This document shows positions 11,007-12,779 of a stretch of 64,000 nucleotides of DNA, piece by piece. A program made the position numbers and the translations under genes. This DNA is from Paenibacillus puerhi (GTDB lineage: Bacteria > Bacillota > Bacilli > Paenibacillales > NBRC-103111). Every line of letters begins with the position of its first letter. Position 1 is the first letter of the stretch. The stretch covers positions 310,001-374,000 of the forward strand of contig NZ_WUWM01000002.1 in NCBI RefSeq assembly GCF_009846885.1, in the 5' to 3' direction. The notes under the pieces are model-generated. The model did no database searches, was not told the origin of the DNA, and saw only the letters and a program-made list of their open reading frames with translations.

Positions 11007-12509
11007 TTAACTTGGAGAATGGTTGATCTCTATCAGTTCCACAATCTTTGTCGCGATATGCTTGCAAAACTCGCTGTCATGCTCCACAAAAAGGATGGTC
11101 GGAGAATGCTCCAGCAGCAGTTCTTCAATTTGCATCCGGGAAATAACGTCGACAAAATTCAGCGGTTCGTCCCAAACATGTAAATGAACCTGCTCGCAGA
11201 GGCTTTTCGCGATCAGCACCTTCTTCTTCTGACCGCCGCTGAAAGAAGCGATGTCCTTTTCGAATTGCAAACGCGAAAAATCCAATTTCCTCAATATCGA
11301 TTTGAACAAGCTTTCATCAATTCCGCTGTTTCTGGCGAATTCCGATAAGTTGCCCCGCAAGTGTGAAGTGTCCTGTGAAACATACGATATCTTCAACTGG
11401 CTCCCTCTTCGAAACGTGCCGGAATAAGGAATCTCCTCGCCGTAAATCAATTTGAGCAAGCTGGATTTGCCTGAGCCGTTCGGACCGGAGAGCGCAATGC
11501 GGTCCCCTCGCTCCACCGTAAAGCTGACGTCGCGGCAAACCTTCTTCTCGCCATAATGAATCGAAACGCGATCAAGCTCGACTAATTGCTGCTTGTGATA
11601 CGCCATCTGAGAAATTTTCAGGCTTTCCGAGCTTTCAACGTTGGTAAGCAGCAGGGATCTTTCCTCGATCGCGGATTGTTGTCTTTGCTCGATCGATTTG
11701 GACCTCTTCATCATTTTGGCAGCCTTGTGACCGATGTACCCTTTATCAACCTTGGAGCCGGAGTTGCGGGTGCCGTTTTTTGTTTTTTCCACTTCATGCG
11801 ACCAGCTGCTCGTACGCTTGGCCGCTTCGGACAGCCGCTTGATGTCCTTCCTCAGTTTTTCGTTCTCAGCCATTTCAAAGTTGTCCTGACGTTGTTTGTT
11901 CTCCCACCAGTCGGAAAAATTTCCTTTCTGGATTTCAATATTGGTTTTGTTGATCGAAAGAACGTGATCCACACAGTTGTCCAAAAACGCCCGGTCGTGC
12001 GACACCAAAATAAATCCGTTCTTGCCGCTCAAATATTCACTGACCAGCTTCCGAGCATGTATGTCCAGATGGTTGGTCGGCTCGTCAATGAGCAAAAAAC
12101 GATTTTCCTTCAAAAACAGGGCCGCCAGCAGCACCTTCGTTTGTTCTCCATTGGACAACGATTCGAACGGTCGGTATAATACGTCCTCCGACACATTCAG
12201 CAGCGAAAGCTCGCGAAGAAGCCGCCAGTGCTCAAAGTCCGGATAGATGCCGGCGACGACGTCAATGGTATTGTTTTCTTTATGTTCAACGTGGAATGGG
12301 AAGTACTCGAAGCTGACGTTGGCCGAAATCGTACCGCTGTATTCGTACTTTCCCAGCAGCAGATTGAGAAACGTGGTCTTGCCACGGCCGTTTCTCCCCG
12401 TAAAGCCCAATTTCCAGTCGGTATCAATTTGAAAGCTAACATTCTCAAAGATGTTGTCATAACTGCCGTCATAAGCAAACGTCAGATTCGTTACCTTGAT
12501 CAATGACAT
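11007..12509 (-). CDS. Lsa-type ABC-F ribosome protection protein
   Basis: The 500-residue product has two ABC domains without membrane segments. Domain 1: Walker A GRNGRGKT (residue 38), signature LSNGEQ, Walker B LLIDEPTNHLD. A long charged linker follows, then domain 2: Walker A GPNGSGKS, signature SFSGGQ, Walker B HVWDEPLN. The start MSLIKVTNLTFAYDGSYDNI and the length match Lsa-family ABC-F proteins, which displace lincosamides, pleuromutilins and streptogramin A from the ribosome. The start ATG follows AAAGGAGG. The long leader with an attenuator (12531-12744) supports antibiotic induction. The exact drug range cannot be read from sequence. Confidence 0.9.
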   Translation of the reverse strand: MSLIKVTNLTFAYDGSYDNIFENVSFQIDTDWKLGFTGRNGRGKTTFLNLLLGKYEYSGTISANVSFEYFPFHVEHKENNTIDVVAGIYPDFEHWRLLRELSLLNVSEDVLYRPFESLSNGEQTKVLLAALFLKENRFLLIDEPTNHLDIHARKLVSEYLSGKNGFILVSHDRAFLDNCVDHVLSINKTNIEIQKGNFSDWWENKQRQDNFEMAENEKLRKDIKRLSEAAKRTSSWSHEVEKTKNGTRNSGSKVDKGYIGHKAAKMMKRSKSIEQRQQSAIEERSLLLTNVESSESLKISQMAYHKQQLVELDRVSIHYGEKKVCRDVSFTVERGDRIALSGPNGSGKSSLLKLIYGEEIPYSGTFRRGSQLKISYVSQDTSHLRGNLSEFARNSGIDESLFKSILRKLDFSRLQFEKDIASFSGGQKKKVLIAKSLCEQVHLHVWDEPLNFVDVISRMQIEELLLEHSPTILFVEHDSEFCKHIATKIVELIEINHSPS

Positions 12510-12530
12510 GCGCCCGTAACCTCCTTTGAC

Positions 12531-12572
12531 AAAATAAAAAGAGCTACAAGAAAGTTACCTTTCTTGTAGCTC
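12531..12572 (-). terminator. Leader terminator (attenuator) of the ABC-F gene
   Basis: In the transcript, GAGCTACAAGAAA pairs with TTTCTTGTAGCTC around GGTAAC, followed by TTTTTATTTTG. It lies between promoter and gene, only about 20 bases before the RBS, so it must stop most transcription unless disrupted. Confidence 0.85.
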
Positions 12573-12744
12573 AAAAAATACGGCACATCCAAACCCGTGC
12601 AGGGAATGAAAAGGATATATTTTCTGAGTGAAAAGAATAAGGTAACTCTCTTGCCAAATAAAGAACAAAACAAATTTTGCTTTATTCTTTAAAAAATGGC
12701 AAGAAATATTACATTATCCTCTTCACTCCAATCGTTAAGTGTGT
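12573..12744 (-). promoter_or_regulatory. Antibiotic-responsive leader RNA of the ABC-F gene
   Basis: The leader can form an upstream stem (CTTGCCA, about 12705, with TGGCAAG, about 12652) enclosing complementary A/T-rich arms. Next comes AGAGTTACCTT (about 12640-12650), which is complementary to AAGGTAACTTTC in the terminator's left arm and loop, with one mismatch. It can therefore act as an antiterminator. A start-stop mini-ORF, ATG TAA, lies at 12709-12714. This arrangement matches ribosome-stalling attenuation known for other ABC-F genes (inference). Confidence 0.7.
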
Positions 12745-12750
12745 CATACG

Positions 12751-12779
12751 ATTTTAGCATACCCGCTTCTACATTGCAA
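12751..12779 (-). promoter_or_regulatory. Promoter of the ABC-F leader
   Basis: On the minus strand TTGCAA (12779-12774) and TAAAAT (12756-12751) are separated by exactly 17 bases. Transcription should start near 12744, giving a leader of about 235 bases. Confidence 0.75.

Follow-up and report, generated by a model that had tools for sequence, protein, structure and literature searches.

The window, a stretch of 64,000 nucleotides of Paenibacillus puerhi DNA, carries on its minus strand a gene for an Lsa-family ABC-F ribosomal protection protein of 500 amino acids (positions 11007-12509, start ATG at 12509). The family is assigned by NF000167, which the protein matches with 766.9 bits at a cut-off of 750, and the nearest solved structure is that of Lsa(A) (7nhk). 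As a member of this family the protein is expected to protect ribosomes from pleuromutilins, lincosamides and streptogramin A.

A leader with all the parts of a transcription attenuator lies before the gene on the same strand. The promoter (12751-12779) consists of TTGCAA (12779-12774), a 17-nt spacer and TAAAAT (12756-12751) with the extended -10 motif TGC, and from its position transcription is expected to start at about 12744. It is followed by GGAG, resembling a Shine-Dalgarno sequence (12726-12729), and by the upstream open reading frame (uORF) ATG TAA (12709-12714), a start codon directly followed by a stop codon. The uORF lies in the left arm of a hairpin, SL1 (12626-12728), the anti-antiterminator, and the right arm of SL1 contains a segment, R (GCAAGAGAGTTACCTT, 12639-12654), that has two possible pairing partners, the left arm and the terminator's 3' half. 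Then come a middle hairpin, SL2 (12573-12625), with a T-rich TTNTTT stretch at its end, and an intrinsic terminator (12531-12572) with a 14-bp stem (12572-12541), a hairpin energy of -23.0 kcal/mol and a U-run. The Shine-Dalgarno sequence of lsa (AAAGGAGG, 12520-12527) is found behind the terminator and is unpaired in the fold of the window leader.

The original prediction had placed a promoter, an upstream stem, a segment complementary to the terminator and a strong terminator before the ribosome-binding site in this region, and all of them are present where it put them on the minus strand. It had also singled out ATG TAA as the only obvious upstream reading frame, which holds in that no other uORF of the window leader has a Shine-Dalgarno-like site. 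A search of the leader against Rfam gave no family match at gathering score. A covariance model built on SL1 matches positions 12731-12624 with 91.9 bits, the window rows being part of the model's own alignment. The same model gives a weak match of 47.4 bits on the opposite (plus) strand at 12623-12731, which is taken as an artefact because SL1 is a long near-palindrome.

Two competing pairings in the leader

The window leader folds with -90.3 kcal/mol compared with a mean of -47.2 for shuffled sequences (z = -10.2), and none of 200 shuffles is as stable. In the full leader R (12654-12639) is paired with the left arm of SL1 that bears the uORF. R can alternatively form a 16-bp duplex of -22.8 kcal/mol with AAGGUAACUUUCUUGU, the terminator loop and 3' half (12546-12561), while the terminator hairpin alone has -23.0 kcal/mol. 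These values bear out the predicted attenuator with a segment that pairs with the terminator arm.

When transcripts growing from R onwards are folded, with the left arm absent, the antiterminator R:AAGGUAAC forms as soon as AAGGUAAC has been made and persists to the end. In an equilibrium fold of the whole leader where only the left arm is forbidden to pair, the terminator is still preferred and the pairing of R with it is absent. The two kinds of fold differ, and the outcome in the window therefore varies with the way in which the occupied arm is represented.

Absence of the pairing from orthologous leaders had been set beforehand as one of the results that would count against the original prediction, and the pairing is present in them. 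All 71 leaders that were folded have R paired with the uORF arm at minimum energy (on average with 12.4 of 13 bases), and when this arm is blocked R pairs with the terminator in 57 of the 71 equilibrium folds. Complementarity of R to the terminator extends over 13 of 13 bases in 145 of 184 leaders. Compensated changes are seen in six leaders, for example L106, where GCAAGAAAGAUAU is combined with GUAUCUUUCUUGC and with GAUAUUUCUUGC in the left arm. The window and its relatives thus share mutually exclusive anti-antiterminator and antiterminator pairings, an intrinsic terminator between promoter and gene (12572-12531 in the window), and a conserved GGAG with AUG-stop in the anti-antiterminator arm, from which translation is predicted.

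The paired regions among relatives are taken from folds of the individual sequences because the alignment is gappy; RNAalifold recovers only a 7-bp core from it. An ungapped search for complementarity between R and the left arm did no better than shuffled controls because of bulges in the arm, and the fold-based count was used in its place.

Distribution of the leader and the genes behind it

Within the order, 204 of 392 genomes match the covariance model of the leader (E <= 0.001), with up to four matches in a single genome. Across the phylum (E <= 0.01) 15 of 398 genomes have it; among these are the window's own genome and two more of its order. After removal of exact duplicates, with close relatives retained, 184 distinct leaders were analysed. 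A T-run follows the terminator stem in all 184, a simple pattern detects a promoter-like site at the same place in 175, and the TTNTTT stretch at the end of SL2 is present in 142 compared with 28 shuffled sequences.

The leader stands before two kinds of drug-protection gene: 161 of the leaders are followed by lsa and 21 by a cfr-type gene, leaving two with neither. Among 80 lsa relatives, nine were called as lacking the SL1 leader by pattern. Some of these, for example L103 and L105, have a different upstream sequence and one (L047) retains only the 3' part; L109 has a clear relative of the leader that the pattern missed. In one locus (L204) the leader is intact, with ATG TGG as uORF, and no lsa was found behind it; the sequence after its terminator resembles the start of a group II intron. 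In two others (L146, L147) the lsa match behind the leader ends after about 15 and 27 codons respectively, and the gene seems to be interrupted.

The cfr translation of L163 exceeds the cut-offs of both TIGR04432 (635.7 compared with 550 bits) and NF000424 (599 compared with 530), and the other cfr-type genes were assigned by 70-95% identity to the L163 protein. Behind the leader of L174 come the C-terminal 45 residues of Lsa (453-497, 96% identical), then a small conserved ORF, then cfr. Only the last few Lsa codons seem to be left before cfr in L163, and weaker traces of the Lsa C-terminus lie between leader and cfr in L140, L160 and L168. These remnants suggest that cfr in such loci took over the leader from lsa through deletion of most of the lsa gene.

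Between the leader's terminator and cfr, all 21 loci (among them L163, L164, L170, L172, L174, L179 and L182) have another conserved small ORF, some 35-40 codons long (for example MFEVVNVHVNRSLSVSTVHDQTKRMPEHYPSIDRCT followed by a stop) and with an AGGAGG-like site. It may encode a second leader peptide. A similar small ORF is found upstream of lsa in L103, where the SL1 leader is lacking.

A blastn search of the leader DNA against plasmids gave no match, and the covariance model found homologues of the leader before plasmid-borne lsa genes. A leader of the same family, with the uORF MYNFSC followed by a stop, precedes lsa(E) on an Enterococcus faecalis plasmid (L258, 321-452), and a Paenibacillus urinalis plasmid (L257) has a leader with ATG TGA.

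The short reading frame and the alternatives

An AUG or GUG start is present in all 183 leaders where the uORF could be called. It is immediately followed by a stop in 150 of them (TAA 89, TAG 47, TGA 14), a count favoured by the choice of the shortest ORF where several starts were candidates, most leaders having a single AUG there. In the same leaders a stop comes next after 181 of 3317 other NTG triplets (5.5%). The conserved ATG-stop looked for in the leaders of orthologues is found in Paenibacillus, Cohnella, Brevibacillus and relatives, and the cfr leaders have it in 21 of 21 cases. Each G of the GGAG is conserved in 183-184 of 184 leaders, and the A is retained in 167 and replaced by G in 17. 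The GGAG and the start codon are 11 nt apart in the window and 8-13 nt apart in relatives. Although the folds leave the U of the AUG mostly unpaired, 172 of 182 aligned leaders have a U there.

The uORFs that are not start-stop have 2 to 10 codons, and most of them have 5 or 6 and end right behind a conserved UUCUUGC; examples are MDISC, MYISC, MDFSC, MINLSC and MRNFSC, each followed by a stop. Four leaders with uORFs of 7-8 codons precede lsa (L057, L072, L078, L124), a three-codon uORF as in vmlR occurs in only one of 183 leaders, and homologous leaders in Clostridia have a 6-codon uORF. A stop stands right behind UUCUUGC in 28 of 33 longer uORFs compared with 47 of 150 start-stop leaders (p = 2e-8, uncorrected for relatedness), and it appears to be kept where the uORF relies on it to terminate. 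On the Lsa tree (FastTree, with many weak branches) the uORF switches between start-stop and longer forms at least 16 times, and the identity of the stop changes at least 23 times within start-stop leaders.

The leader is probably a ribosome-sensing transcription attenuator of the Lsa-type gene, with a uORF that consists of a start directly followed by a stop. Read simply, the uORF of the window is a start-stop, provided that the ribosome initiates at its AUG. The stop also has a place in the hairpin, where the GUAA of the uORF sits opposite the GUUAC of R. UAA, UAG, UGA and UGG all preserve this pairing, and among 150 start-stop leaders only one has an unpaired stop. Because the stop codon base-pairs as well, comparison alone cannot prove that it is selected as a stop; it does support that the start is conserved and that the uORF terminates early.

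The strongest alternative accepts an attenuator operated by the ribosome and holds that only initiation at the AUG matters, the UAA being a by-product of a GUAA:GUUAC pairing that imitates the terminator arm. We put this somewhat below even chances. Three of the four codons compatible with the pairing are stops in any case, UGG does occur behind the start (in L072, L124 and L204; three seen compared with 5.6 expected, p = 0.13), and leaders with uORFs of 2-8 codons stand before intact lsa genes. Against a mere by-product, uORFs without an immediate stop still end early, mostly directly behind UUCUUGC, outside the pairing with R, and this adjacent stop is retained far more often in longer uORFs than in start-stop leaders.

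That SL1 binds a ligand or a protein, with the AUG there by chance, is very unlikely. The leader is structured and highly conserved, as such a binding element might be, and translation of the uORF is predicted rather than proven. However, the leader belongs to no Rfam family, the GGAG-like site, the AUG or GUG and the unpaired U are all conserved, homologous leaders carry evident ORFs of 5-6 codons at the same place, and related ABC-F leaders are operated by ribosomes (PMC9226507, PMC10201436, PMC12421871).

A longer uORF as the sensor is less probable still, even if two such frames are open in the window: one from the in-frame ATG at 12747, giving MTHLTIGVKRIM and ending at the same TAA, and one of five codons from the GTG at 12725. 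The frame from 12747 was rejected because it is not conserved and its ATG probably precedes the transcript, which is expected to start at about 12744; the nearest relative (L031) also lacks this ATG. Elsewhere the upstream frames are broken by 1-nt changes, as in L044, and the GTG or TTG at the 12725 site comes directly behind the GGAG with no space for a Shine-Dalgarno interaction. Least probable of all is a plain intergenic terminator without regulation, for although regulation in this genome is predicted from sequence, 204 of 392 genomes in the order have the leader, with the two competing pairings preserved.

Proposed sensing by the ribosome and comparison with known leaders

As a ribosome-sensing attenuator the leader would work as follows. 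In the absence of drug, a ribosome would initiate at the AUG with UAA in its A site, release fMet and depart; SL1 would re-form and sequester R, and the terminator would halt transcription ahead of lsa. When a pleuromutilin, a lincosamide or streptogramin A occupies the peptidyl-transferase centre, the ribosome would remain on the AUG with its fMet-tRNA and cover the left arm of SL1, and R, being freed, would pair with the 3' half of the terminator so that RNA polymerase could enter lsa. The TTNTTT of SL2 resembles the NusG pause motif of the vmlR leader and may act as a pause site by analogy. E. coli ribosomes can initiate at an AUG directly before UGA and terminate there with RF2 (PMC9841429), which together with the precedents discussed below makes a start-stop uORF a plausible sensor for this class of drugs. 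The 11 nt between GGAG and AUG in the window exceed the usual optimum and speak against the ribosome-sensing reading.

The step blocked by the drug would be the release of fMet and not the formation of a peptide bond. A sensor of this kind should ignore macrolides, phenicols and oxazolidinones, which act on the growing chain, and a similar argument has been made for the MIN uORF (PMC9226507). We see about an even chance that the leaders form a widespread attenuator family in which drugs of the peptidyl-transferase centre are sensed without any peptide bond, through a block of fMet release, and which controls both Lsa and Cfr while being blind to macrolides, phenicols and oxazolidinones.

The closest known system is vmlR of Bacillus subtilis, where a three-codon uORF (MIN) precedes the gene and mutation of its Shine-Dalgarno sequence or start codon abolishes induction (PMC9226507). 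Both leaders have, in the same order, a uORF in an anti-antiterminator hairpin, a middle hairpin with TTNTTT, an intrinsic terminator and an ABC-F gene, which in vmlR acts against pleuromutilins, lincosamides and streptogramin A (PMC9226507). The vmlR leader differs in its three codons, compared with one in the window, and in an extra hairpin over the main Shine-Dalgarno sequence, and the window RNA appears to be of a different sequence family.

Very short uORFs before ABC-F genes with the same resistance spectrum are also known for Clostridioides difficile cplR (MRI) and for LsaA (uORF4u consensus MAGN), with three and four codons respectively (PMC10201436). The cplR uORF is likewise sequestered in a 5' hairpin, whereas the cplR terminator hairpin also covers the Shine-Dalgarno sequence of the gene (PMC10201436). 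The published uORFs for this drug class (MIN, MRI, MK[L/Q] and MAGN) all have at least three codons (PMC10201436). In the Streptomyces leaders of are5sc (MLV) and tiaA, toeprints show that the ribosome stalled by the drug sits on the start codon, which means that reading of later codons is not required (PMC12421871). These are actinobacterial leaders with uORFs of 3 and 9 codons (PMC12421871).

The lsa(E) leader of Enterococcus plasmids (L258) belongs to the same RNA family according to the covariance model and has the same R and terminator segments; it differs in its six-codon uORF and in a second small ORF before lsa(E). The erm leaders depend on the nascent peptide for stalling, are induced by macrolides and exert their control mostly at translation. 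Features of such translational attenuation were looked for in the window, where the leader has no conserved longer ORF and the lsa Shine-Dalgarno sequence is unpaired. The original prediction had contrasted ATG TAA with the longer leader peptides of erm genes; this stands in that no erm-like longer ORF is present, but ATG TAA is better compared with the uORFs of 3-4 codons that precede other ABC-F genes, the gene being Lsa-type by its NF000167 score. What the erm leader peptides share with the proposed switch is a drug-stalled ribosome on a leader ORF (ermB: PMC8274638). The AUGUAA of Arabidopsis NIP5;1 is likewise a start-stop element, and ribosome stalling on it is triggered by a small molecule; it is eukaryotic, responds to boron and works via mRNA decay, and is an analogy only (PMC11915504).

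Ribosome-mediated transcription attenuation of ABC-F genes is already known from vmlR and cplR, and the one-codon uORF is a new variant of it. The literature searched, which took in a minority of subscription papers, describes no start-stop uORF in a bacterial attenuator. More of them may be hidden because start-stop uORFs fall below the default minimum of three codons in uORF4u (PMC10219788).

Among leader ORFs a start-stop uORF is the limiting case. If such a sensor works, neither a peptide sequence nor elongation would be required, and specificity would come from the stage of translation alone. With this leader one could test directly whether a ribosome that faces only termination is held by pleuromutilins, lincosamides and streptogramin A. 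The presence of the same switch before the unrelated genes cfr and lsa suggests that drugs can be sensed by a leader that encodes no peptide, and since the plasmid lsa(E) leader is in the same RNA family, the switch bears on mobile resistance.
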